Positions 3,215-34,010 of a stretch of DNA of 34,341 bases are shown here, piece by piece. The position numbers and the translations under genes are program-made. Below the pieces are notes generated by a model. The model ran no database searches. It was not told the origin of the DNA and was given only the letters and a program-made list of their open reading frames with translations. How positions within the stretch are numbered: position 1 is the first letter of the stretch; every line of letters begins with the position of its first letter. The DNA is taken from the IMG/VR virus record IMGVR_UViG_3300010885_048004, positions 1 to 34,341 of that record, one strand, 5' to 3'. The stretch comes from a virus.

Positions 3215-3220
3215 TAAATA
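3215..3220 (+). promoter_or_regulatory. TAAATA element
   Basis: Plus strand GGCTAAATATT, 19 nt before the ATG at 3240, with AAGGAG between them. It is back-to-back with the minus-strand element at 3157-3162, making this a divergent late-type control region. Confidence 0.6.
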
Positions 3221-7976: not shown

Positions 7977-7982
7977 TAAATA
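7977..7982 (+). promoter_or_regulatory. TAAATA element, 6 nt from the ATG
   Basis: Plus strand ACGTAAATATGATTC then ATG at 7989. There is no Shine-Dalgarno, and with T4-like late promoter spacing transcription would start at or next to the ATG. Confidence 0.6.
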
Positions 7983-7988
7983 TGATTC

Positions 7989-9284
7989 ATGAACATTCCT
8001 TTAGACCGACTGTATTGCTACATCGAAAACCTGGCCGAACAGATACGTGGAGACCGTGTAATAATTTATCGTTTTTGGCCACACGGTTCAAAAAATATCA
8101 ATCATCTGAATAATCTGCGCAATTTTGACAAAGAAACCGATCTTGATGAATGGTGCAAAAAATTAATAAATCCTTCCATTTGGTGCAATGACCAAGAACC
8201 ACTGGATCACGAATACTACAGTAAAAATCTAAGACTGAGTGATTCTCCATATTCAAGGCCACCCAAAAATCTAAATCATTCTCGAAACATCTTTGAAAAA
8301 TCTCTGTTGTTGCACAGCGAACAGAGATCTCAAAATGTCAAACAGTACGAAGCCGATGGAGAACTGATACCAGTGTACTATTGGAGTCATGCAATCATAG
8401 CAAGAGATTGGTTTAGGTATGCCGAACACGAACAGTTCTGTACTAGTTCAAAAAAAACTTTTTTAATCTATAATCGTGCCTGGAGCAACACTAGAGAATA
8501 TCGTTTGCGATTTTCAGACCTGTTGATCGACCATGACTTGTTGCAAGTCTGTCAGACCAATTGCAATGTGATAGAACCTGAGTTGCAGATTCATTATAAA
8601 AATTACCCGTTTAAAAATCCCTACTGGAAACCTAAAAATAATTTAGAAGATTTTTTGAACCCTACCATGGCCTTTTCAACCAGCAGTGCTGATTTTGATA
8701 CAGACGATTATAATTCAACCGATGTTGAAGTTGTACTCGAAACCCTGTTTGATGATGATCGATTGCACTTGACCGAAAAGAGTTTGAGGCCCATTGCCTG
8801 CGGTCAACCATTTTTATTGGCCGGTACTCAAGGCAGCCTGGCCTACTTGCGTAGTTATGGATTCCGTACTTTTGACACAGTATGGGACGAAACCTATGAT
8901 ACCATAACGGATCCCGAACAAAGACTACAGGCCATCGTAACAGTCATGCAAACTATTACCAACTGGAGCGATAACGAGCGAACAGATCGACTGACTCAGG
9001 CCCGAAAAATTGCTGATCATAATCGACAGTATTTTTTTAGCAAACAATTTTTTGATCGTGTAGTTGATGAATTAAAAACAAATTTACAGTCAGCATTTGC
9101 TGATCTTGAACAGTGCAACAACTATCAATTCTGGATTGATCGATGGACAGCACTGTTGAAAGATCCTGCGGTAGTTGCTGGTATGGAGAATCAACTGGAT
9201 TGCCGCCAGTTGCCCAGCCAAGCCCGTGTAGAATTTGTAATGTCAGTGGCTGGTCGTAGACTAGAGAAAAAATCTAAATTATGA
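7989..9284 (+). CDS. Glycosyltransferase-like protein, 431 aa
   Basis: Long protein with no clear signature in its first 250 residues. The segment LHLTEKSLRPIACGQPFLL, followed by GTQGSLAYLRSYGFRTF and VWDETYD, matches the C-terminal sugar-nucleotide-binding layout of GT10/fucosyltransferase-like families (E-K-x-x-R-P-I-A-x-G-x-P). A role in modifying virion or host glycans is therefore likely but unproven. It is AT-richer than many neighbours. The start lacks a Shine-Dalgarno and sits 6 nt behind a TAAATA element. Its stop overlaps the next start (ATGA). It leads the plus-strand island that interrupts the minus-strand gene run. Confidence 0.6.
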   Translation: MNIPLDRLYCYIENLAEQIRGDRVIIYRFWPHGSKNINHLNNLRNFDKETDLDEWCKKLINPSIWCNDQEPLDHEYYSKNLRLSDSPYSRPPKNLNHSRNIFEKSLLLHSEQRSQNVKQYEADGELIPVYYWSHAIIARDWFRYAEHEQFCTSSKKTFLIYNRAWSNTREYRLRFSDLLIDHDLLQVCQTNCNVIEPELQIHYKNYPFKNPYWKPKNNLEDFLNPTMAFSTSSADFDTDDYNSTDVEVVLETLFDDDRLHLTEKSLRPIACGQPFLLAGTQGSLAYLRSYGFRTFDTVWDETYDTITDPEQRLQAIVTVMQTITNWSDNERTDRLTQARKIADHNRQYFFSKQFFDRVVDELKTNLQSAFADLEQCNNYQFWIDRWTALLKDPAVVAGMENQLDCRQLPSQARVEFVMSVAGRRLEKKSKL

Positions 9285-9646
9285 AACTGTTGATTGCTGT
9301 GTTATTTTTACTGGCCTCTGCGCCATCGTTGGCCGACACTCGCGAATGGACCACCGAAGAACGAGTTTGGGGCACAACTGCTGGCGTACTGCTGTTGAGC
9401 GATTGGGCCACCACCAGAGACATGACTCATAGGTACGCTGAAAACTATCGTGAGATCAATCCGCTGTTGGGCGCACACCCCAGTGGGGCACGAGTAAATT
9501 TGCATTTTTTAATTGCGGTCCCGGCTGTGTATCTATTGGCAGATCAGATGCCCGAGCATCGCAAGGAGATACTACAGGCAGTCAGTGCAGTGGAATTGTT
9601 TACGGTGGGCAACAATCTCCGAATTGGATTACGGTTTCGATTCTGA
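9281..9646 (+). CDS. Secreted or membrane hypothetical protein, 121 aa
   Basis: N-terminal signal peptide (MKLLIAVLFLLASAPSLA, predicted cleavage after SLA-DT). The mature part has two hydrophobic helices (about 35-45 and 74-90), a conserved-looking DWATTRD ... EINPLLGAHPSGARVN block and a C-terminal strand IGLRFRF ending in phenylalanine, as outer-membrane-associated proteins often do. The ATG overlaps the preceding stop (ATGA). Similar small envelope proteins occur in proteobacteria (recalled). The export signal implies action in the host envelope during infection. Confidence 0.7.
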   Translation: MKLLIAVLFLLASAPSLADTREWTTEERVWGTTAGVLLLSDWATTRDMTHRYAENYREINPLLGAHPSGARVNLHFLIAVPAVYLLADQMPEHRKEILQAVSAVELFTVGNNLRIGLRFRF

Positions 9647-9674
9647 TAAATCGACGTCAGCAAAATGTATGCTG

Positions 9675-9680
9675 TAAATA
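9675..9680 (+). promoter_or_regulatory. TAAATA element, 6 nt from the ATG
   Basis: Plus strand CTGTAAATACTTGAT then ATG at 9687. Same spacing as at 7977-7989, again with no Shine-Dalgarno. Confidence 0.6.
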
Positions 9681-9686
9681 CTTGAT

Positions 9687-10478
9687 ATGAAATTTGCCTT
9701 TGATTTAATTTCCGACCTGCATGTGGAAACATGGCCCAACTTTGACTGGACTGGGCAAGCCACTGCACCCTATTGTGTAGTAGCCGGCGATGTGGCTCGT
9801 GACAGAACTGTGTTGATCGATGCATTGACACACCTGGGCCAATGCTATCCGGGCGGTGTATTCTATGTGGACGGCAATGAAGAACACCGACATTATTATG
9901 AAGACCTCAACGACAGCTATCAAGAACTGTATGATAAAATTTCTAACATACCCAATGTGGTGTACCTGCAGGACAATGTTGTGGTGGCCAATGGCGTGGC
10001 CATCCTGGGGTCCAATGCCTGGTGGACCTATGATTTTGATCCAGGCATGACTGTTGATCAGTCCATGCAACACACCCGTGAATATTTTCAAATCAGTCGT
10101 ACAGCCGTGGCCAATGTAAACAACATGGCCTGGAACGATGCAGCTTACCTTAGAAACAGCATAAAAAAATTACAGACACATGCCGAAGTACGATCTATAG
10201 TTGTGGTCACTCACACTGTGCCTGCACCGTGGATAATCAAACACGACCTAGATCTAGTCAACACCTGGAGATTCAACGGCATGGGCAACAGTCACATCAC
10301 CCGATCCATCGACGAGGACACTGAACACAAAATGCAAACCTGGTGTTTTGGTCATTACCACAAACCAGTTGATCAGGTACAGGGCGGAATACGCTATATC
10401 AGCAATCCACGTGGACGAGGCAATACGCCCTGGAGCCAACCAGCCTATTATGCCAAACGTATAGAAATAGATGTTTAA
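9687..10478 (+). CDS. Calcineurin-like metallophosphoesterase, 263 aa
   Basis: Metal-dependent phosphoesterase with the family blocks in order: DLHVE (10-14, usual D-x-H), GDVA (34-37), GNEEH (63-67, usual G-N-H-D/E), a THTVP block (about 175) and GHYH (about 217). The third block reads GNEEH instead of GNHE, so the usual His is displaced by two positions. Substrate could be a nucleotide, nucleic acid or phosphoprotein. The ATG at 9687 follows a TAAATA element by 6 nt, with no Shine-Dalgarno. The 3' end overlaps the convergent clpS gene by 4 nt. Confidence 0.85.
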   Translation: MKFAFDLISDLHVETWPNFDWTGQATAPYCVVAGDVARDRTVLIDALTHLGQCYPGGVFYVDGNEEHRHYYEDLNDSYQELYDKISNIPNVVYLQDNVVVANGVAILGSNAWWTYDFDPGMTVDQSMQHTREYFQISRTAVANVNNMAWNDAAYLRNSIKKLQTHAEVRSIVVVTHTVPAPWIIKHDLDLVNTWRFNGMGNSHITRSIDEDTEHKMQTWCFGHYHKPVDQVQGGIRYISNPRGRGNTPWSQPAYYAKRIEIDV

Positions 10479-10783
10479 ACTGTTTCTGGTTCCAGTTTGA
10501 TCTGTAACGGATAATTGTTGTTGCGAGCTTGCAGCGTGACTTCGATGCCTTTTTGTTCGGCTATTTCATAGGGCAACACAGCTACCACAGCTGACCCAGT
10601 TTCGTGTATGTCTACAGTAATTTTTTCGGCAGTTTGCTCAGTATAGCTAAAAGAATCGATCAAAGTTTCGATCACAAATTCCATTGGGGTAGTATTGTCG
10701 TTGAGATATATGAGCTTGAACATAGGCGGCTCAGTGAGTCCCAAATTTATTTGTGTTTTTACTGCTGCGTCTGCTTGCGACAT
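10475..10783 (-). CDS. clpS: ClpS-like N-degron adaptor, 102 aa
   Basis: Adaptor that binds N-terminal destabilising residues and delivers proteins to ClpAP. The pocket residues follow E. coli ClpS: YLNDNTTPMEFV matches N34-D35 and T38-P39-M40, and His in DIHETG matches H66. E. coli D36 is Asn here. The length (102) is typical (about 106). The N-terminal 20 residues, which in ClpS regulate ClpA, are present. No clpA is in the window, so it must use the host ClpA or work with the phage ClpX. Start ATG 10783 with AAAGGA 6 nt upstream; the leader has a stem-loop and a TAAATA element. It forms a late-looking single-gene unit. Confidence 0.88.
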   Translation of the reverse strand: MSQADAAVKTQINLGLTEPPMFKLIYLNDNTTPMEFVIETLIDSFSYTEQTAEKITVDIHETGSAVVAVLPYEIAEQKGIEVTLQARNNNYPLQIKLEPETV

Positions 10784-10800
10784 CTCAAATCCTTTAAAAT

Positions 10801-10832
10801 AGTGGAGAGCTGGATGCCCTCCACTGTATTTA
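10801..10832 (-). promoter_or_regulatory. TAAATA element with 5' stem-loop before clpS
   Basis: Minus strand TGTAAATACAG (TAAATA at 10832-10827). It is followed at once by the inverted repeat AGTGGAG/CTCCACT (10825-10801), so the transcript would begin at or inside a stem-loop, ahead of the ribosome site. Confidence 0.65.
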
Positions 10833-10839
10833 CATTATA

Positions 10840-11298
10840 TTACTCTTTGTAAGAAATTGCAATGGTCTTTGGTTTGGCTTCTTCGGGAATTTCTCGACGC
10901 AAGTGAACACTCAAGATACCTAGTTCAAGATGTGCATTGCTGATTTCTACATAATCGGCCAATTGAAATTCTCTACGGAAGCTGCGCTCGCCAATGCCTT
11001 TGTGCAAGTAAATAGCAGTACTATCTTCGCTGTTCACTGTCTCGGTAGCATGTCGACCTTCGATGATCAAGGTTTTCTTGTCCTTGGTCACAGAAAGATT
11101 GTCGGGCCCAAAGCCAGCCACAGCCACACTGATCATGTACTCATCATCATTGATTTGCACAATGTTGTAGGGCGGATAGTTGGTGTTGCTTTGTTGAGCA
11201 TTTACACGCATGAGATCATCAAACATGTTATCAAAACCGATACCAAATTTGTGAAGTGCGGGAAGATCGAATGTACGAAGGGTTAGAGTTTTTGTCAT
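10840..11298 (-). CDS. Hsp20/alpha-crystallin small heat shock protein, 152 aa
   Basis: ATP-independent holdase chaperone. The alpha-crystallin domain spans about residues 42-140 (PPYNIVQINDDEYMISVAVA ... GILSVHLRREIP). It contains the conserved G-I-L-x-V-x-L end motif, and P-x-x-I-x-I near the C-terminus (PKTIAI), matching the I-x-I/V oligomerisation tail. Length fits IbpA (about 140). Hsp20 genes are common in T4-like cyanophages. ATG at 11298 with AAAGGAG upstream, a leader hairpin and a TAAATA element. It neighbours clpS, rpsU and clpX, giving a proteostasis cluster. Confidence 0.92.
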   Translation of the reverse strand: MTKTLTLRTFDLPALHKFGIGFDNMFDDLMRVNAQQSNTNYPPYNIVQINDDEYMISVAVAGFGPDNLSVTKDKKTLIIEGRHATETVNSEDSTAIYLHKGIGERSFRREFQLADYVEISNAHLELGILSVHLRREIPEEAKPKTIAISYKE

Positions 11299-11329
11299 TT
11301 GTTTTCTCCTTTATTAAGCAAGATGACTA

Positions 11330-11375
11330 GTTGTCGGTAGACCCCACCTGGGCATCTACAACAGTATTTATTATA
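11330..11375 (-). promoter_or_regulatory. Overlapping TATAAT/TAAATA element with leader hairpin before hsp20
   Basis: Minus strand TATAATAAATAC (TATAAT 11375-11370, TAAATA 11370-11365), then an inverted repeat with outer arms GTTGT/ACAAC (11362-11330) and inner arms GTAGA/TCTAC. No -35 fits the TATAAT, favouring the late-type reading. Confidence 0.6.
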
Positions 11376-11388
11376 CTACAGATCTGAA

Positions 11389-11649
11389 TTATATTTTGTT
11401 ATTTAGGTCAATCACCATGCGATATCGGCTCAATTGAGAATCCTGTCCCGGATTCCATGTCATGTTCCAAAACGAATAAAATTCGTCTCGATCAAATGTA
11501 AAACGCACTGTGTATTTTATGGTTTTTTCTCGATATGCAATGCTGTAGCGTTGACTCCAGTTTTGCATTTCTTGTCGCACAAGAGTTCGAAAATCATCGG
11601 CTGTGTAAAAAGCGTCAGGCCCGTCGGGTAATTTGAACTCTATGTACAT
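11389..11649 (-). CDS. Hypothetical protein, 86 aa
   Basis: The start ATG at 11649 shares its A with the stop of rpsU (TGATG), so translation is coupled; the longer frame starting at 11697 lies inside rpsU and is rejected. The protein starts MYIEFKLPDG and has aromatic, charged alpha/beta sequence with no cysteine cluster or membrane helix (WNMTWNPGQD, RYRMVIDLNN). No family is recognised. Being last in the clpX-rpsU operon it may be co-expressed with the proteostasis genes. Confidence 0.65.
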   Translation of the reverse strand: MYIEFKLPDGPDAFYTADDFRTLVRQEMQNWSQRYSIAYREKTIKYTVRFTFDRDEFYSFWNMTWNPGQDSQLSRYRMVIDLNNKI

Positions 11650-11870
11650 CAGTAGAGTTTTTTGGGCAACGCCTGTTCGCGTAATTTTTTCTGCCAACGA
11701 CTTTTAGCTGCACCCTTTTTACGTTTGCGTTTTGTAGTGGGTTTTTCGTAAGTTTCTTTTTTGCGAACATCTTCCAGCAGTCCGGAAGTGGTTATTTTTT
11801 TCTTAAATTTGCGCAGAGCTTTTTCTACATTTCCGTCGACCACTCGTACTGTATTTTTATATTCTTTCAT
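11649..11870 (-). CDS. rpsU: Ribosomal protein bS21, phage-encoded, 73 aa
   Basis: Small basic protein matching bS21, the 30S subunit protein close to the anti-Shine-Dalgarno end of 16S rRNA: VRVVDGNVEKALRKFKKKIT at the start, then a Lys/Arg-rich tail (KRKRKKGAAK). Length is typical (about 70). bS21 is one of the ribosomal proteins found repeatedly in large phage genomes, where it may bias host ribosomes towards phage mRNA; that role is inferred. Its ATG overlaps the clpX stop (ATGA). Confidence 0.92.
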   Translation of the reverse strand: MKEYKNTVRVVDGNVEKALRKFKKKITTSGLLEDVRKKETYEKPTTKRKRKKGAAKSRWQKKLREQALPKKLY

Positions 11871-13066
11871 GTGTTTTCTTGCAATAGCAGTGTTGTAGGC
11901 GTATTTACTAGATTTTTACTAATAGTGATGCGCAGTATGTCCATGGCCCGATAGGTGGGCAAATCAAACATGTGCGGCAATAAAATACGCTCTAATTCGC
12001 TGTGTAATCCACGAGCTCCGGTTCGAGTGGTCAATGTTCGATCAACAATGAGATCCAAGCTGTCAGCATCAAATTCAAGTTTCACATTGTCTTTGTCAAA
12101 TAACCATTGATATTGGCTTATCATGTTGCCGTTGACCTGCGTCAAGATACTGATCAACTGTTCACGGTCAAGGTCTTGCAAACTCACACAGTTGCTGAAT
12201 CGTCCAACAAATTCTGGTATCATACCGTAGCGAACTAGATCATCCGGAGTCACTTCCATGGGCTTTGTATGTTTGGCACTAGATAAGTTGGCACCGAATC
12301 CAATAGAAGTACCTTGCACACGATTTTGTACTATTCGATCCAGGCCTACAAATGCGCCGCCGGCTATAAACAAGATGTCGGTAGTATCAATTTCCACTGT
12401 TTCGGTACTATTTTTCTTGTTGCCAATGGCCGGAACGCGACACTTGACACCTTCTACCAGTTTGAGCAAGGCCTGTTGTACGCCTTCGCCAGACACATCT
12501 TTGGTTACCACTGCGCTTTCGCTACGTCGAGCAATTTTATCTACTTCGTCTAAAAATACAATGCCATGCTGGCAACGTTCTATGTCACCGTCGGCAGCAG
12601 CATACAATCGAGTAATCATGCTTTCCACATCATCGCCCACATATCCAGTTTCGGTCAAACAGGTAGCATCGGCTATTACAAAAGGCACATCAAGATAACG
12701 AGCCAGGGTGCGGGCCAACAGGGTCTTTCCGGTGCCAGTGGGGCCAATCATGAGTATATTGCTTTTGTCCAACACATGCTCTTCGTCGCTTATTCGCTTG
12801 TAGTGATTGGTTATGGCCACACTGAGTACCATTTTGGCCAAGTCCTGACCAATCACAAATTGATCAAGATAATCTTTCACCGACCGAGGATCGGGCACAG
12901 CAACTTGATCAGTTTTGGATTGGGTTGATTTTTTATTGTCTTTTAGTAAATTACCACAAAGGTCCACACACTCGTTGCAGATAGCCACAGTATGGCTGAC
13001 TATTAATTTACCAACTCGATCTTTGTGCTTGTCACAAAAACTGCAATGATCAACTGTTGTACTCAC
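11867..13066 (-). CDS. clpX: ClpX AAA+ unfoldase, 399 aa
   Basis: ATP-dependent unfoldase. Seen: an N-terminal zinc domain (C8-x2-C11, C30-x2-C33), Walker A GPTGTGKT (108-115), pore-1 loop GYVG (141-144), Walker B VFLDE (170-174), sensor-2 GARGL (350-354), and the IGF ClpP-docking loop (255-257). The segment equal to the E. coli RKH loop reads NKKNS (216-220), so the His is missing and ssrA-tag recognition may differ. E. coli ClpX is 424 aa. No clpP is in the window. Start is GTG at 13066, one base after the stop of the upstream membrane gene. Operon order is membrane protein, clpX, rpsU, unknown. Confidence 0.95.
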   Translation of the reverse strand: MSTTVDHCSFCDKHKDRVGKLIVSHTVAICNECVDLCGNLLKDNKKSTQSKTDQVAVPDPRSVKDYLDQFVIGQDLAKMVLSVAITNHYKRISDEEHVLDKSNILMIGPTGTGKTLLARTLARYLDVPFVIADATCLTETGYVGDDVESMITRLYAAADGDIERCQHGIVFLDEVDKIARRSESAVVTKDVSGEGVQQALLKLVEGVKCRVPAIGNKKNSTETVEIDTTDILFIAGGAFVGLDRIVQNRVQGTSIGFGANLSSAKHTKPMEVTPDDLVRYGMIPEFVGRFSNCVSLQDLDREQLISILTQVNGNMISQYQWLFDKDNVKLEFDADSLDLIVDRTLTTRTGARGLHSELERILLPHMFDLPTYRAMDILRITISKNLVNTPTTLLLQENT

Positions 13067-13067
13067 G

Positions 13068-14678
13068 TTAGCCCTGTTTTGTGTTGTTTAATCGTTGTTC
13101 TATGCTTTCTCGTTCAGCATTGCTCAAAAGTTCTGGGTCATACTCGCCACTACTGATTTTTTCAATCAAATGATCTATGTAGGAATCATTATAGGCATGC
13201 TGATCGCTAAGTTCTTTGTCTACTTCGATCCAACCATTTCCGTTGAATTTAAATAACTGGCTAGGCAAGCGATCAACTCGCAAAAACATATCGCCTTTTT
13301 TTGCATCTAGAGGAAACTGAGTGCCAAATCCTCTGACTTCTCCGGCCAACTGTGATCCAGCATTGTCTGCTTCTAGGCGTAAAGTATCTAGTTCACTGTT
13401 TCGTGCCCGTGCTTCAAGCACCGGATTAACAAATCGTTCTATCAATTGTTTGCGTTCTCGGTCGCTGATGGGCAGACTATTAATGTGTTCTTCTTGGTGC
13501 CATGGTAAAATATCAATTTCTCCAGCCTGGTGTTGTGCATGATATGTTCGTTCATCTGCATCCGGTTGCCCTGACATAAAATGATTCTTGGCCAACTGAT
13601 GCAATTGATCATCTGGATGTACATCGGGGATTGAAATGTTTACTGTTGCCTCTGTTGTCACAACCGATTCGGTTACAGCCTGTTTGATCTGATCAAACTC
13701 AGCAACAATTTCTTCCACATCCGCTTCAGTCAATGGATACGGAGTTGTACCATCATACATCCAGCCTGGTGGGTGCGGATCTTTTGGTTCTTCGTCAAAC
13801 AACTTACTGGTCTCAACTACCTCTCCGGTGGGCAGTTCTGGTTCTGCGGTTGCACGTAGTTGTGCAACCTGCTCATCTGTTAATGGTCCATCATCGGCCT
13901 CGTAAGCAGGTTGCAATCTACGTTCACGTTCCCACTTTAAACTCTCTGTGGCCGCCAACACCATCATGATGGCCAATGGATCAAACACCACAACCAATAT
14001 GATGATGACCCAACGCACAGCACGTTCTAATACATTGGCGTCCGGGTTGTCTCCGTAGATCAACGCCGCGATATACTTGATTGGCCCAACTTCTGCTTCG
14101 ACTTTACGTACCTCGGCGGCAATAGGCGCACGGGCATCCGTAAGTTCTGCAATGGACTTCTGCGACTGTAGTATTTCAGCTTGAAGTCTAACACGCTCTT
14201 TCTGCTGGGCTCTTCGCAAAGCCACAGCCTTGTCGGCACCTTTTTCATCTGCTGAGCGGCCCAATACCGAGTCCACTCCCTCATCCATCTGTTTAAGTGC
14301 CTTACGGTTTGCTTCAATATTTTCCTTTTGGGTCTTGATTTTTTCATCATATATTGCAATTTTACTTTGTACATCACCGCTGATTAAATTTTGATCACTG
14401 TGTGCTTTTGATAGGAAACCAAAGATGCCCATTGATGTTATGACCATCAGCATGCCCACAGCAGGCACCAGGTATATTTTCATCAGCAGTCGGCACCGTG
14501 GCCAGTACTCGTGCAACCATACTGTGACAGTGACCTTGGCCACTTCCAGGATTGACCCCATTATGATAATGGGTATGACTGCTGACGCAAAAATAGCAGT
14601 AAGGCCCAAGATACTGTACCAGGCCGCGACCATGCTCAAAGACAGCGCGGTTAACAATGTGAAATAACTGAGGAACAT
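13068..14678 (-). CDS. Membrane protein with coiled coil and large soluble tail, 536 aa
   Basis: Three membrane helices at about residues 3-22, 24-46 and 70-90, a charged coiled-coil region (about 105-200, NIEANRKALKQMDEG), a fourth helix (about 218-245, VRWVIIILVVVFDPLAIMMV), then about 290 hydrophilic, acidic residues. The middle domain would lie outside the inner membrane and the tail inside. I recall similar proteins in marine T4-like phages but cannot name a function. Start ATG 14678 has no Shine-Dalgarno and lies 5 nt behind a TAAATA element that overlaps the preceding stop. The gene is one base from clpX, so the unfoldase may act with it. Confidence 0.75.
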   Translation of the reverse strand: MFLSYFTLLTALSLSMVAAWYSILGLTAIFASAVIPIIIMGSILEVAKVTVTVWLHEYWPRCRLLMKIYLVPAVGMLMVITSMGIFGFLSKAHSDQNLISGDVQSKIAIYDEKIKTQKENIEANRKALKQMDEGVDSVLGRSADEKGADKAVALRRAQQKERVRLQAEILQSQKSIAELTDARAPIAAEVRKVEAEVGPIKYIAALIYGDNPDANVLERAVRWVIIILVVVFDPLAIMMVLAATESLKWERERRLQPAYEADDGPLTDEQVAQLRATAEPELPTGEVVETSKLFDEEPKDPHPPGWMYDGTTPYPLTEADVEEIVAEFDQIKQAVTESVVTTEATVNISIPDVHPDDQLHQLAKNHFMSGQPDADERTYHAQHQAGEIDILPWHQEEHINSLPISDRERKQLIERFVNPVLEARARNSELDTLRLEADNAGSQLAGEVRGFGTQFPLDAKKGDMFLRVDRLPSQLFKFNGNGWIEVDKELSDQHAYNDSYIDHLIEKISSGEYDPELLSNAERESIEQRLNNTKQG

Positions 14679-14682
14679 AGAT

Positions 14683-15000
14683 TTATTTACCGGGTGGTAT
14701 ACGGACTGTGACGGCTAGTTTAACGGCCAACCAAGATGTAATGGACACATCGGGCACGTCAAACCAAACCCAGAGAGTCTTGAGGTCGTCCCAGATCAAG
14801 CCTTCCAGTCGACGTCGAACATGACTTTGGCCCCGCCAGTTGTTGGCACCATACACTTGATTGAGTTCGCGAATAACTGCATACCATGTGGCAATGTCAC
14901 GCAGTTCCACTTGAATACGGTGCATGACCAAGGGCGTTAATTTAAGAGAGTCAAGGGATTCAAACGTACTCAACGCAGAGGTTTCAATTTCAACAGACAT
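14683..15000 (-). CDS. Hypothetical protein, 105 aa
   Basis: No recognised family. The sequence is alpha/beta with a Trp-rich centre (YGANNWRGQSH, IWDDLKTLWVWFDV) and a hydrophobic C-terminal strand. AAAGGA precedes the ATG at 15000 by 6 nt. It is read from the sigma70 promoter at 15203-15231 through a long structured leader (15001-15202). Its last codons contain the TAAATA element used by the next gene. Confidence 0.65.
   Translation of the reverse strand: MSVEIETSALSTFESLDSLKLTPLVMHRIQVELRDIATWYAVIRELNQVYGANNWRGQSHVRRRLEGLIWDDLKTLWVWFDVPDVSITSWLAVKLAVTVRIPPGK
14684..14689 (-). promoter_or_regulatory. TAAATA element, 5 nt from the ATG
   Basis: Minus strand CCGGTAAATAAATCT then ATG at 14678. 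It overlaps the stop codon of the upstream gene. No Shine-Dalgarno is present. Confidence 0.55.
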
Positions 15001-16710: not shown

Positions 16711-18083
16711 ACTTTTTCTCCGGCTTCAAAATCTCTGAAACGTAAGAACCTTGGGAATCTCAGGCTGTATGATCCGTCTTGGTTTTGCGTAACTGCGTCA
16801 GCTTGCACTTCCACCAAGTGACCAACCAGGTCTGCCCGGCTATTCCAATACTCATCACGATCGCTATCAGACAGGCCACTGCCAACATTAACTCGTATGT
16901 GTCTTCCATTGTCATCTCCTTCACAGATTATAGCACCCACTCGACCCAGGTTGCGACCTGTGCCTTCTTCAAAGCCCACAATGCTCAAGTCAACTGTGAT
17001 TGTGGGTTTCCATTTCATCCACGAGTCGGTGCGTTTGCACAGGTAAGGTGCGTCCATGCTTTTGATCATGATACCTTCAAAGCCTTCAGCAACACAATCT
17101 TGGGCATAGCGGTTCATGATATCATGTCCTTCGGCTGTGTCCAAATCCACATCCAGGCCGTTCATGATACGCAAACAATCAGTTTCCATCAACTGGCTTC
17201 GAGCTGACTCTAACCACTCAATGCGTTTGTACTGTTGCAAATTGCAGTGACCTTCTTTCAGTGCATCTAGCGGGATAATGTCAAAGATATGATACACCAT
17301 GCCATCAGTGACAGCATCTGATTTGCGGTGTGCTTGTTTCATCAGTTTCTGAAAACTCTCACCCACAATCTCGCCGTCTAGTACAAAATGCCCACCTGTA
17401 CCTCGACCATACTGGAATGCTCCACGCTGTTCCAAGATTGCTTCTGCAATGTGCGGAAAGTTTGCAAACTCTTTGCCATTACGGCTAAACAACGAACACG
17501 AATTGCCCGACACCACAGCCAACACACGCACACCATCCAGTTTGCATTCCAGGCGTTTGATGCCTTTCAACTTCTTGGGCTGATCGGTTGAGTCTTGTGC
17601 CAGTTGGCAACTGAACACAGGAATCCGCCACTCTGTTCGGCCCAGCACTTTGTTTAGTGTTTTCTCACTGATGCCGCATCGCAGGTCTTTGGTGATAACA
17701 CGTCTGCAGAGATTGTTCCACTCCACCGAGTCAAACTGTTTCATGCATTCCGCAATGGCATCTCTAGCACGATGGCCAGATATCGATCGGGTGCGCAGGC
17801 CTTCCAACAGACCCCAGAACACTGGCCAAGGGTTTTCGGCATGTTCAATGCCTGAACTCTCGGGCACCTGCTTCACATGAAACGTGTAGAAAGGATTGTA
17901 GGCTTGATAGCAGTTGAACAAGAAACACTGCGCATTGGCGCTGCCCAACTTTGCTGCCATCAAGGCTTTTTCAATCACACGCTCTTTGTGCAAGCGGCTA
18001 TCTGAACTTTCGAGATCTCTTATCCAGTCTGCGGCCACGGTGATTCCATTGAACTGCTCGGCAGTAAAGTCTATCGAGTGCAT
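16707..18083 (-). CDS. ATP-dependent DNA ligase, 458 aa
   Basis: Seals nicks using ATP. Nucleotidyltransferase motifs: I at CKLDGVR (Lys181 carries AMP), III at FVLDGEIV (233-240), IIIa at YHIFDIIP, IV at EGFEGIMIK and V at WMKWKP. A helical N-terminal domain (1-165) and an OB-fold C-terminus follow the T4 gp30 layout (T4 ligase is 487 aa). It supports genome replication and repair. The ATG at 18083 directly follows TAAATA with no gap and no clear Shine-Dalgarno. The lipoprotein gene stops at 18095, so this may be read from further upstream. Confidence 0.95.
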   Translation of the reverse strand: MHSIDFTAEQFNGITVAADWIRDLESSDSRLHKERVIEKALMAAKLGSANAQCFLFNCYQAYNPFYTFHVKQVPESSGIEHAENPWPVFWGLLEGLRTRSISGHRARDAIAECMKQFDSVEWNNLCRRVITKDLRCGISEKTLNKVLGRTEWRIPVFSCQLAQDSTDQPKKLKGIKRLECKLDGVRVLAVVSGNSCSLFSRNGKEFANFPHIAEAILEQRGAFQYGRGTGGHFVLDGEIVGESFQKLMKQAHRKSDAVTDGMVYHIFDIIPLDALKEGHCNLQQYKRIEWLESARSQLMETDCLRIMNGLDVDLDTAEGHDIMNRYAQDCVAEGFEGIMIKSMDAPYLCKRTDSWMKWKPTITVDLSIVGFEEGTGRNLGRVGAIICEGDDNGRHIRVNVGSGLSDSDRDEYWNSRADLVGHLVEVQADAVTQNQDGSYSLRFPRFLRFRDFEAGEKV

Positions 18084-18089
18084 TATTTA
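18084..18089 (-). promoter_or_regulatory. TAAATA sequence abutting the ligase ATG
   Basis: Minus strand GAGTAAATAATGC: TAAATA (18089-18084) is immediately followed by ATG 18083. Transcription with late-promoter spacing would start inside the gene, so this may be chance. Confidence 0.25.
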
Positions 18090-26721: not shown

Positions 26722-27135
26722 TTATTGTATTTGATACAGTGCTAACCGACGGACTGTTTGCGTTCTCTGTTTGTTATTTAAGATTGAATCTTTGTTCCAA
26801 TTAAGTATATATTTTTCTTTGTCCAACAGGACTAAATTATCTCCCGACTCAGTCAAAATCAATTCAGCATCAGCCATATCTATGCGATCTAGCAAACTTA
26901 TAGTATACAGCATTCCCAGTGCTCGTGCAAGATCACAATAGATATTGTCGCTCAAAAGTTGCCATGGGTCCGGCCAAGTGGGTTGATCATCCCAGTGTAG
27001 ATAATACGGTTGCCAGGGAGACTGAAACCACCAACTGTTGATATTGGTCAGTGCCGATTCGACCGAACCGGTCTCACAGTGAGTTCGCAGATGGTTCCAG
27101 CTTTCCAATCTAGGACCAAAGGTCTTGGGCCACAT
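26722..27135 (-). CDS. Hypothetical protein, 137 aa
   Basis: Trp-rich protein (NSWWFQSPWQPYYLHWDD, PTWPDPWQLLSD) followed by a helix (CDLARALGMLYTISLLDR) and a beta part (LVLLDKEKYILNW). Its ATG shares a base with the stop of the tail spike gene (TAATG). I recall similar proteins next to fibre genes in marine T4-like phages; an assembly chaperone or adaptor role is only a guess. Confidence 0.65.
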   Translation of the reverse strand: MWPKTFGPRLESWNHLRTHCETGSVESALTNINSWWFQSPWQPYYLHWDDQPTWPDPWQLLSDNIYCDLARALGMLYTISLLDRIDMADAELILTESGDNLVLLDKEKYILNWNKDSILNNKQRTQTVRRLALYQIQ

Positions 27136-28901
27136 TAGTTGTAGTAGGCAATGGTGTAGTTGATGGTGGCATTGGTGCCAGCATTGGAAGATACATAATT
27201 TAACGAAAGGGTACTGCCAACTTGAGCAAAACTCAAAATTATTCCGGTGCCTGAATTGTCTATATATTCGTCATTGTACGAAAGCGGGGCGGTCACTGCC
27301 GAAATGGTACCGGTGCGTATGGCCGATGGCGAGCGGAATATGGTGTAGTTGACCGCAAACGCTGTTGCGCCGCTGACTGTGAGACTAAAAACTGTACCTG
27401 AAAAGTTATTTTGCAAAGTAACTTGTTTTCCAGATTCTTTTGTCCAGGTACCCATCTGCAATTGAGCCCCATTGGTTGTGGCTATGCTGAGAGTGCCGTC
27501 GATGTTGATGCGACTAAATTGACCAGCATCAGCATCGTTGCGAGCAAACATATCACCAATGCTGACATTGTTATCGCTCTGTATCTCAATGATGTCACTG
27601 GCTGGATAGCCGGCGCCCAGGAAGTGATTGCCCACATCATAGAACACATTGTATCCAGTGGCACTCATGCTGGCTGTGCCAAACACAACGCCTTGAACAT
27701 ATATGTTGTCAAAGAAATTGTGTACCAACCGAACTCCGGTGATTGAACTGGCACTTTCTCCGGTCATCTCTTCAGACGCAGCAGTTTGGCTTATGGAAAC
27801 TGTATAAGATCCAACCCCGCCTTTGTAGCCCGAAATAAATCCAGTGATCACAGTATCAGCAGTGACAAATGACCCATTCACTGTTTGTCCAATTTCTATT
27901 GTACCGCTGGTCAATCCGGTCACAGTCAACGTGGTGCCTGAAATTGAGCCAACAAACTGTGATGTCAATCCCCACACAGCACCTTGATACAAGGTGTCAA
28001 ATTGAGAATTTGCGATTGTGATTCCAGTCACTGCTTGATTGGTATTGACTCCGTAAACAGTGCCGGTGAATATACATTCGTCGGCCACGTTTTGTCGGCA
28101 TACATAACTGTCAGAACTGGCCAATTCAAATGCTGCTGTGGCAGCAATGTTAGTGTTCAATGTACTGGTAGTCTTGGGGCCCACAAAACTGGTTTTTTCG
28201 AAACGACAATTGGTAGCATCTTGTAACAAAAACACACTGTAGGCCGGATTGGCATTTTGAAATCCCATGTTGGAGATTGTTATAAATGTTGGCGGAGTAG
28301 CGCCGCCTGTTCCTATTTCGTCTCCGGTCTGTTGCAAGCTGTCGGCAGTACGTGCAGTATAACCTATAGCAGAAGAATCCAGTTGTATAACACTGTTGTT
28401 GATGCCTTCGCCGTACAAGGTTGCATAGGAAGGAATCTTGATTTCTCCAGTTACACGGTATACCCCGGCTGGAAAAAATAATGCGCGACGTATTTGTGGG
28501 TTGCTTTGTCTACAAAACAACTGATACAATGCTCGATTGATAGCATCGGTACAATCCACAATGCCATCTCCGACTGCGCCAAAATCCAACACAGTGGCCC
28601 ATTGGTCCAGCCAATTTTGAAGACTGAGTGTGATAGGAGTGCCCGGAGTAGGGCCAGTCTGTACTGCATATCCAGCAGCCAGGCCTTCGTAAGTGTAAGT
28701 GGTAGATAAATTTAAAATGTCGCTGAATTCAGTTAAGATTTCAGTGTTGCCAACCACAGGAGCACCTTCTTCCAAGGTGCCATTGCCGATCCATAGTTGG
28801 CGTGTATCTGTTGACCAGCCCAGTTCTGCACCGGCCAGTTGCGGTAAATTTTCCGATAGACCTTTACGGTTTGTAATTTGAGAGATTTGTACTATTGCCA
28901 C
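27135..28901 (-). CDS. Tail spike with pectate-lyase-like beta-helix, 588 aa
   Basis: The N-terminus [24 protein letters not shown] is the particle-binding layout of phage receptor proteins ([14 protein letters not shown]). Then [21 protein letters not shown] (about 104-124) is the start of a pectate-lyase-3/right-handed parallel beta-helix. A short inserted Ig-like repeat follows ([20 protein letters not shown]). The C-terminal 120 residues are Ser/Thr/Asn-rich. Such spikes bind and often cleave surface polysaccharides. Start GTG 28901 with AAGGAA upstream and a TAAATA element 24 nt before it. Confidence 0.85.
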
Positions 28902-28920: not shown

Positions 28921-29637
28921 TCACATATTTAGCAAGTAATACTGTTCGACCTTTTTCCACCATAGATCGCGATAGTGCTCAAATTCTGCACCTGCCAGCA
29001 CAAATTCCTGATACTCGGGCGGTTTTGTCATGTTCATCTGCTCATCCAGCTCGGGCTTGACACACATCAAGATCACGCCTTTCTGTATCTTGGTACCGTG
29101 CAGTTCGTTGTGTGCTTCTGCATAGGCACACAACTGCATGAAGTAATCATCAATCCACTCTCGTTTTTTAGGTTTATTGGTTTGTTTATAGTCCAAGATG
29201 GCTTCCGCATTCAAGTGTATGCCTGCGCCGTCTGTGGTGCCTGCGTACACACTGGGAAAATACAGTGGAACTTCAATGCCCCAAAACTCACTGACATTTT
29301 TTAATCCATGTTCTACCACAGTGTGTGCCATGGCATGGCTGGCCCAGCTGAACGGGTTTGTTCCACGTTCTTTGATCACACCATCTCGGACATACTGTTC
29401 AAGATATGTGTGCATGCGGGTGCCACGATTGGCAGCTTCTGTGGTGATCTGTTGTGCCTGTTCATGTCCCACTCGATTGCGCCAGTTTTGCAAGGCCTGT
29501 TTCTTTTCCTCACTTTTGGTAGCTTCCAGGATTGTGGTCACCGACGGTAATTTTTTTCCGTCGGGTGTGGCATACAGTCTGCGTCCGTTGATGTTTTCTC
29601 GCGGAATGGGCTGATAGTCGAATCTTGGATTGTACAA
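28921..29637 (-). CDS. PD-(D/E)XK nuclease, 238 aa
   Basis: RecB/Cas4-type nuclease core: DGAG with the first acidic residue (TTDGAGIHL), then D-Y-K in [12 protein letters not shown] as D-x-K, and the helix Q-motif [13 protein letters not shown]-terminal PSVTTIL plus [10 protein letters not shown] matches the helical lead-in. It lacks the four Cys of Fe-S-containing Cas4/AddB, despite standing next to Fe-S genes. The start is an unusual TTG at 29637, two bases after the iscA stop; the frame is closed by a TAG four codons upstream and no Shine-Dalgarno is seen. Role likely in DNA processing or recombination. Confidence 0.8.
28926..28931 (-). promoter_or_regulatory. TAAATA element before the tail spike gene
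   Basis: Minus strand TTGCTAAATATGTG, overlapping the end of the nuclease gene, 24 nt before the GTG start at 28901. Confidence 0.55.
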
Positions 29638-33256: not shown

Positions 33257-33688
33257 CTATGAATTATTTATGGTTAAGGGGGCAAACCAAATGTTTTGTT
33301 TTGGTCCTTGAGTTACCAAAAACGATTCGATTTCGGCACGGTCATTGAGGCCCAACAACATGGGCACTCCGTCAGCATCGGTGCGCAGAATCAGCACTGG
33401 ATCCGATCCAGGCCCATAAACTCCGTCAGCTTCGGTTTCAAATTCAAACATCCAGTGTGTGCCGGTTTGGTCTGCGATAGGATCGGTCAGTGCAAACAAC
33501 TGTGTTCGTAGGCTCAAGATCTGTGTGATTGTTTCCCAGTTGCGTTGTTGATTGCGGCTGCGATTCCATGACTCTACATCATGTATGGCTTGACCTGCAC
33601 TGTCGTGAAATGGCATACGGCTCTGTTTACAATGACCAGTTACACCAGTGGCAGTGATGTCAAACAGGGTCTGGCAAGCAAACTTCAT
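33257..33688 (-). CDS. Hypothetical protein, 143 aa
   Basis: Mixed alpha/beta protein with a basic, polar N-terminal part (MPFHDSAGQAIHDVESWNRS), a helix (NWETITQILSLRTQLF) and a beta-rich acidic second half (HWMFEFETEADGVYGPGSDP). AGGAAA lies upstream of the ATG at 33688. Recalled as conserved in marine T4-like phages; function not known. A TAAATA element for the next gene overlaps its stop codon. Confidence 0.65.
   Translation of the reverse strand: MKFACQTLFDITATGVTGHCKQSRMPFHDSAGQAIHDVESWNRSRNQQRNWETITQILSLRTQLFALTDPIADQTGTHWMFEFETEADGVYGPGSDPVLILRTDADGVPMLLGLNDRAEIESFLVTQGPKQNIWFAPLTINNS
33265..33270 (-). promoter_or_regulatory. TAAATA element with weak leader stem
   Basis: Minus strand CCATAAATAATTC, overlapping the end of the gene at 33257. 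It is followed by a TAGTG/CACTA inverted repeat before the ribosome site of the gene at 33226. Confidence 0.5.
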
Positions 33689-33939
33689 TTGGGTTTCCTA
33701 CTTAATTCATATAGTATTTCAACTTGTTCGCATAAATGATCAAGTTCTGCATTGTCTCGACGTGCTTGAAAAATTTCTACCCAACGTTTTGATCGCTCTA
33801 AATCTTTAAGTTCTTGTTGAAGGTTAGGATCTTGATAATGTAGTTCTCGTTTGGATTCCCCGGGACGGCGAGCATACACAGTGCGACCACCGTCTGGACT
33901 TTCAAACACTGTTAATTCTGTTATTTTGCTGACCATCAT
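33685..33939 (-). CDS. Hypothetical protein, 84 aa
   Basis: Charged protein with a beta start (TELTVFESPDGGRTVYARRP) and a helical second half (QQELKDLERSKRWVEIFQARR). Two ATGs lie in tandem (33939, 33936) and no Shine-Dalgarno is present. TAAATA lies 7 nt before the first ATG, and a sigma70 promoter lies just behind that, so the mRNA would have a very short leader or none. Overlaps the next gene by 4 nt. Confidence 0.65.
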   Translation of the reverse strand: MMVSKITELTVFESPDGGRTVYARRPGESKRELHYQDPNLQQELKDLERSKRWVEIFQARRDNAELDHLCEQVEILYELSRKPK

Positions 33940-33946
33940 AATAGAG

Positions 33947-33984
33947 TATTTACGTTATTATAGCAAAGGCTGTATTAAAGTCAA
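33947..33984 (-). promoter_or_regulatory. Tandem sigma70 promoter and TAAATA element
   Basis: Minus strand TTGACT (33984-33979), a 16-bp spacer and TATAAT (33962-33957) with TGC in front, then ACGTAAATACTC (TAAATA 33952-33947). Early- and late-type signals share one site, 7 nt from the ATG at 33939. The -35 follows the terminator at 33988 directly. Confidence 0.7.
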
Positions 33985-33987
33985 CAA

Positions 33988-34010
33988 AAAAGCCCCTTTA
34001 AGGGGCTTTA
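33988..34010 (-). terminator. Intrinsic terminator
   Basis: Stem AAAGCCCCTT/AAGGGGCTTT on the minus strand followed by TTTTTTG. It lies just behind the stop at 34014 and abuts the sigma70 promoter, the same junction design as at 546-600. Confidence 0.85.

Follow-up and report, generated by a model that had tools for sequence, protein, structure and literature searches.

TAAATA elements and gene starts in the window

The window analysed here, IMGVR_UViG_3300010885_048004, is a 34-kb linear viral contig (34,341 nt, a fragment). Its T4-type genes encode NrdA/NrdB, DNA ligase, ClpX, a ClpS-like adaptor, Hsp20, a NifU-like protein, a tail-fibre-like protein and bS21. The genes for ClpX, the ClpS-like adaptor, Hsp20 and bS21 form a cluster at 10475-13066 (-), and in Salicola phage SCTP-2 (L257), too, ClpX and ClpS are found downstream of the gene homologous to 13068-14678. 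The window gave no hits in Rfam and tRNA scans. No close DNA-level relative of the window was found among cultured phages; many viral contigs carry homologues of the four window genes described below, several of these contigs being 220-364 kb long. The hexamer TAAATA, the core of T4-type late promoters, was located relative to gene starts, and the features concerned are as follows.

7977-7982 (+): candidate late-promoter core TAAATA, N6 before ATG 7989
7989-9284 (+): gene, 431 aa, predicted leaderless mRNA; first after a divergent neighbour, 39-nt intergenic region
9675-9680 (+): TAAATA core, N6 before ATG 9687
9687-10478 (+): metallophosphoesterase-like gene (phrog_1649), predicted leaderless
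13068-14678 (-): 536-aa gene, weak virion-structural match (phrog_11591), predicted leaderless
14684-14689 (-): TAAATA core, N5 before ATG 14678; shares bases with the stop codon TAA (14683-14685) of ORF 14683-15000, which lies upstream
33685-33939 (-): conserved 84-aa gene, no function assigned, predicted leaderless
33947-33952 (-): TAAATA core, N7 before ATG 33939
33957-33984 (-): sigma-70-like promoter TTGACT-N16-TATAAT, in tandem with the late TAAATA of the 33939 gene
33989-34009 (-): intrinsic terminator AAAGCCCCTTAAAGGGGCTTT with T tail, just upstream of the 33939 gene promoters
3215-3220 (+): TAAATA, 19 nt before ATG 3240, Shine-Dalgarno AAGGAG
11649-11870 (-): phage bS21 gene (PF01165)
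11902-11907 (-): TAAATA, 31 nt before the bS21 start (31-nt predicted leader)
28926-28931 (-): TAAATA, 24 nt before GTG 28901, Shine-Dalgarno GAAGGA; 24-26 nt in all four relatives
30373 to start 30330 (-): TAAATA, 37 nt, Shine-Dalgarno AGGAG
32547 to start 32518 (-): TAAATA, 23 nt, Shine-Dalgarno AGAGGA

As an earlier note on this DNA had reported, the ATGs at 7989, 9687, 14678 and 33939 lie 6, 6, 5 and 7 nt after TAAATA, and none of the four sites has a Shine-Dalgarno (SD) sequence. From the shuffled TAAATA frequency, about 0.04 genes in the window would be expected to have TAAATA 4-7 nt before their start; the probability of at least four is about 1e-7, or about 7e-5 if the TAAATA rate is inflated five-fold. 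The same note had called the spacing fixed. It is short at all four sites, but varies from 4 to 7 nt among relatives, with no single value. The start at 14678 was restored from the conserved N-terminus of the homologues, our simple gene caller having placed it at 14483.

Homologous sites were counted after removal of identical sequences. The product of the 7989 gene matched no PHROG or Pfam family, and both of its close homologues (L002 and L003) also have TAAATA-N6-ATG. Of 10 distinct homologous sites of the 9687 gene, 8 have TAAATA at a distance of 4-6 nt from the ATG. Two genes had larger families: TAAATA was present at 4-8 nt in all 59 sites of the 13068-14678 gene (36 of them at 5 nt), with protein identity down to about 49%, and at 4, 5 or 7 nt in all 62 sites of the 33939 gene, so that a spacing of 4-8 nt is kept at all 121 distinct homologous sites of these two genes.

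At the 33939 gene, a terminator, a sigma-70-like promoter, TAAATA and the ATG are stacked within 71 nt (33939-34009, -), a tandem early/late arrangement. The early transcript predicted from the sigma-70 site would likewise have a short leader without an SD. Some homologues, for example L142 and L168, retain TAAATA and have no sigma-70 promoter. In L142, L143, L145, L148, L168 and L173, a terminator-like GC-rich hairpin with a T-rich tail (GCCCCGCAAGGGGCTTTG) lies directly before TAAATA-N4-ATG, no more than about 45 nt ahead of the match and with no sigma-70 promoter between hairpin and TAAATA.

The remaining TAAATA-preceded genes of the window bear out the description that their spacing is about 19 nt or more, usually with an SD; the exceptions without a clear SD are 20290 to 20261 (23 nt) and 19475 to 19445 (24 nt). 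The gene with the GTG start and good SD listed above, 24 nt from its TAAATA, encodes a pectate-lyase-like tail fibre (27135-28901, -). TAAATA at 18083-18089 (-) is followed immediately by the DNA ligase ATG (0 nt) and fits neither spacing class.

Spacing classes in related phages

The tally of TAAATA-to-start spacing covered four near-complete relatives of 220-360 kb, which are freshwater T4-like phages, with 1,366 called genes. Starts were taken from our own simple codon-usage caller, which used neither TAAATA nor SD. The distribution is bimodal: 88 genes have TAAATA at 4-7 nt (short class), 8 at 8-14 nt and 102 at 15-30 nt (long class), corresponding to 22, 1.1 and 6.4 genes per position. 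Observed and expected numbers were 88 vs 1.3 at 4-7 nt (a 68-fold enrichment), 8 vs 2.4 at 8-14 nt and 96 vs 4.0 at 15-26 nt. The peak at 5-7 nt that the earlier note had looked to a genome-wide tally to reveal is thus present in the four relatives. Counting without gene calls, TAAATA-N4-7-ATG exceeded a reversed-pattern control in 15 of 15 related contigs (413 vs 154 in sum). The near-empty interval at 8-14 nt is what would be expected of a promoter if genes either dispense with a leader or need one that can hold an SD. About half of the close TAAATA promoters in the freshwater phages sit at the AUG.

An SD of at least four bases precedes 76-86% of long-class genes and 42-48% of genes without TAAATA, compared with 0-12% of short-class genes, whose lack of SD is partly by construction, because TAAATA occupies the SD position; short-class starts are thereby without SD whichever mRNA carries them. 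The start codon is ATG in 87 of the 88 short-class genes. In raw counts, ATG was enriched at 4-7 nt after TAAATA (142 vs about 40), and GTG and TTG at that distance showed no enrichment. Enrichment confined to ATG fits the AUG requirement of leaderless translation.

The class of a gene is conserved among orthologues. Among orthologous pairs in which both members have a close TAAATA, 48 were short/short, 65 long/long and 10 mixed (Fisher P 1e-22, which is descriptive only as the pairs are not independent). Spacing was identical in 34 of the 48 short/short pairs, against a null mean of 13 and a maximum of 23 in 2,000 draws. Among the short-class families are those of the portal, of a gp25-like baseplate wedge protein, of several virion structural proteins and of the window's metallophosphoesterase; the long class contains tail sheath, a baseplate wedge protein, bS21 and the gp55 homologue found in relative G001. 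The portal gene has a spacing of 7 nt in three freshwater phages and is leadered in the cultured Xanthomonas phage XacN1 (22 nt) and Stenotrophomonas phage RAS14 (20 nt), which indicates that the design can change between clades.

Promoter geometry and the late sigma factor

In the textbook case of T4 late transcription, the mRNAs have leaders that contain ribosome-binding sites. The late box of T4, TATAAATA, extends from -13 to -6 (PMC1524935), so that +1 is the sixth base after TAAATA and an N5-ATG arrangement places +1 on the A of the start codon. The base signature of +1 was taken from long-class genes and is thus independent of the short class. In these genes, A peaks at offset 6 in T4 (0.58), in XacN1 and RAS14 (0.57) and in Aeh1, Moby, X1 and S-PM2 (0.58), and is raised at offsets 5, 6 and 7 (0.51, 0.45 and 0.47) in the freshwater phages. 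The spacing of the short class tracks this signature, being N5 in 12 of 14 XacN1 and RAS14 genes, 7 from XacN1 and 5 from RAS14, and N4 to N7 in the freshwater group. The spread of 4-7 nt in the latter must mean either that +1 is flexible or that some mRNAs have leaders of 1-2 nt.

The bases flanking TAAATA are alike in both classes, and the two preceding bases are not conserved as TA, TAAATA thus representing a reduced TATAAATA. A comparable relaxation of the late box has been described in other T4-like phages and in Aeh1, whose late promoter is CTAAATA from -12, without the first TA of TATAAATA (PMC1524935). No -35 element was detected in either class, -35-like matches occurring at 2% of short-class, 4% of long-class and 7% of control sites. 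With the same flanks and no -35 element, one promoter type seems to serve both classes. An opposite-strand gene lies upstream of 25% of short-class genes vs 7% of genes without TAAATA, as expected of promoters.

A search with T4 gp55 found a homologue in 8 of 10 relatives; the window fragment itself shows none. The G001 homologue matches phrog_12791, 'sigma factor for late transcription', at 3e-73. The homologues of G001, G002 and G005 are about 300 aa long, vs 185 aa for T4 gp55, and have an N-terminal extension. The promoters described here resemble those of T4 (gp55/gp33/gp45) in the TAAATA core, the predicted +1 about 6 nt downstream, the gp55 homologue and the use for virion genes. They differ in that TA before TAAATA is not conserved and in that T4 has no gene at 4-7 nt, vs 21 at 15-30 nt. 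Genes at 4-7 nt were also absent from Aeh1 (200 kb examined), Moby and S-PM2, the zero for S-PM2 being weaker than the others because this genome was poorly called (128 genes), and X1 has one; all of these phages have the 15-30 nt class. The short-spacing design is thus not general to T4-like phages. Aeh1 is a close parallel, being T4-like with its box reduced as here, but has no leaderless-spacing genes in the region covered. Among cultured phages, the short class was found in XacN1 (9 genes) and RAS14 (5 genes), almost all at exactly 5 nt.

Predicted leaderless late mRNAs and alternative readings

Given the two spacing classes, the difference in SD, the AUG specificity, the conservation among orthologues and the gp55 homologue, TAAATA is very probably a gp55-type late promoter from which portal, baseplate and other virion genes would be transcribed without a leader. 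The 5' ends themselves, the dependence on gp55 and the route of leaderless translation are predictions from these patterns. Host RNA polymerase carrying the phage gp55 factor would initiate on the first base of the AUG or no more than about 2 nt away, yielding leaderless mRNAs for a conserved subset of late genes, on which initiation would occur from the 5'-terminal AUG. In the remaining late genes this promoter would lie at a distance of 15-30 nt or more from the start, with room for an SD. Since TAAATA sits at the SD position, the AUG of a short-class gene would hardly be used on read-through or early mRNAs and would be active solely as a 5' end. The promoter would in this way double as a late-only translation switch for short-class genes, a consequence to which we give slightly less than even odds. 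More speculatively, one late sigma factor may run two translation programmes by promoter placement, with leaderless AUGs silent until gp55-directed transcription starts there and possibly read by altered (bS21-exchanged or 70S) ribosomes, so that the place of the promoter alone would decide when virion genes are expressed and by which route they are translated. For the 14678 gene, with the upstream stop a few nt away, translational coupling without a leaderless mRNA could contribute.

A late promoter adjoining the start codon also restricts translation to the late mRNA in T4 gene e and I-TevI, where an inhibitory leader hairpin is escaped only by late-initiated mRNAs (PMC3014915); these genes use a hairpin and keep their SD, which is absent here. 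Leaderless phage mRNAs are known. The lambda cI mRNA begins at its AUG (PMC9031893), though this is a single mRNA for a lysogeny regulator, whereas the class predicted here comprises late virion genes served by a phage sigma factor. In the large Thermus phage phiYS40, most middle and late mRNAs are leaderless (PMC3594737); host and transcription setting differ, and two designs coexist under one late promoter here. The phiYS40 programme also involves changes in IF2 and IF3 levels that would favour messages of this kind. In the open-access literature, subscription journals being mostly outside the search, no earlier description came to light of late genes that lack leaders and are driven by a T4-type late promoter. 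Comparative sequence gives the predicted class strong support. If the prediction is true, it would represent a new way of joining late transcription to translation in a widespread giant-phage group, and would offer many naturally paired late mRNAs, leaderless and leadered, that share one promoter. SD-based gene finders may misplace short-class starts.

A different emphasis is that leaderless late mRNAs exist and are preferred, or spared, by ribosomes that the phage bS21 has retuned. The window and 12 of 14 related contigs carry the gene for bS21, which has its own TAAATA promoter (at 28, 28 and 24 nt in three relatives), and this suggests that it would be expressed late; a link between the expression of bS21 and late replication has been reported for another phage group (PMC9723584). 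Sequence searches with bS21 returned distant, mixed matches only and gave no host. However, the short class occurs in XacN1 and RAS14, which lack bS21, and in SCTP-2, which has it, TAAATA-N4-7-ATG is not enriched (66 vs 75 in the control); half of the late genes, with many non-late genes, still rely on an SD. These phages reject bS21 as a requirement for the short class, and we consider a retuning role improbable. Of the interpretation in the earlier note, the computations support a predicted leaderless class distinct from a leadered, SD-bearing one, in a T4-type late-promoter geometry; they do not support the connection with bS21.

Could TAAATA next to the ATG instead be an A/U-rich translation-initiation element, such as a standby or bS1 site on longer mRNAs with 5' ends further upstream, and not a promoter? 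The 5' ends of short-class coding regions show little structure, and an A/U-rich leader can stand in for an SD. Such an element would hardly account for the exact hexamer, the gap at 8-14 nt and the second, SD-associated peak at 15-30 nt, nor for the similar flanks of the two classes, the excess of short-class genes that follow an opposite-strand gene and the intrinsic terminator just upstream of the 33939 gene, all of which make this account unlikely.

It is very unlikely that the TAAATA sites are host sigma-70-type -10 elements, with mRNAs that are leaderless but early. The TTGACT-N16-TATAAT promoter at the 33939 gene does overlap the region, but is separate from TAAATA and missing in the homologues named above; -35-like matches are no commoner than in the control, and short-class genes include portal and baseplate proteins. 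With no -35 element, host sigma-70 promoters in general were rejected, the one at the 33939 gene being additional.

Leaderless late mRNAs from a gp55-type promoter are the preferred reading over a coincidence of composition and gene-start calling, to which we give almost no credence: the phages are moderately AT-rich (41-46% GC) and TAAATA in the window is only slightly above shuffles, but the 68-fold enrichment is confined to 4-7 nt and to ATG, is gene-specific and is conserved in spacing across diverged homologues, and these counts refute chance. An artefact of upstream TAA stop codons was rejected as well, as hexamer and spacing persist in differing contexts and away from stops.
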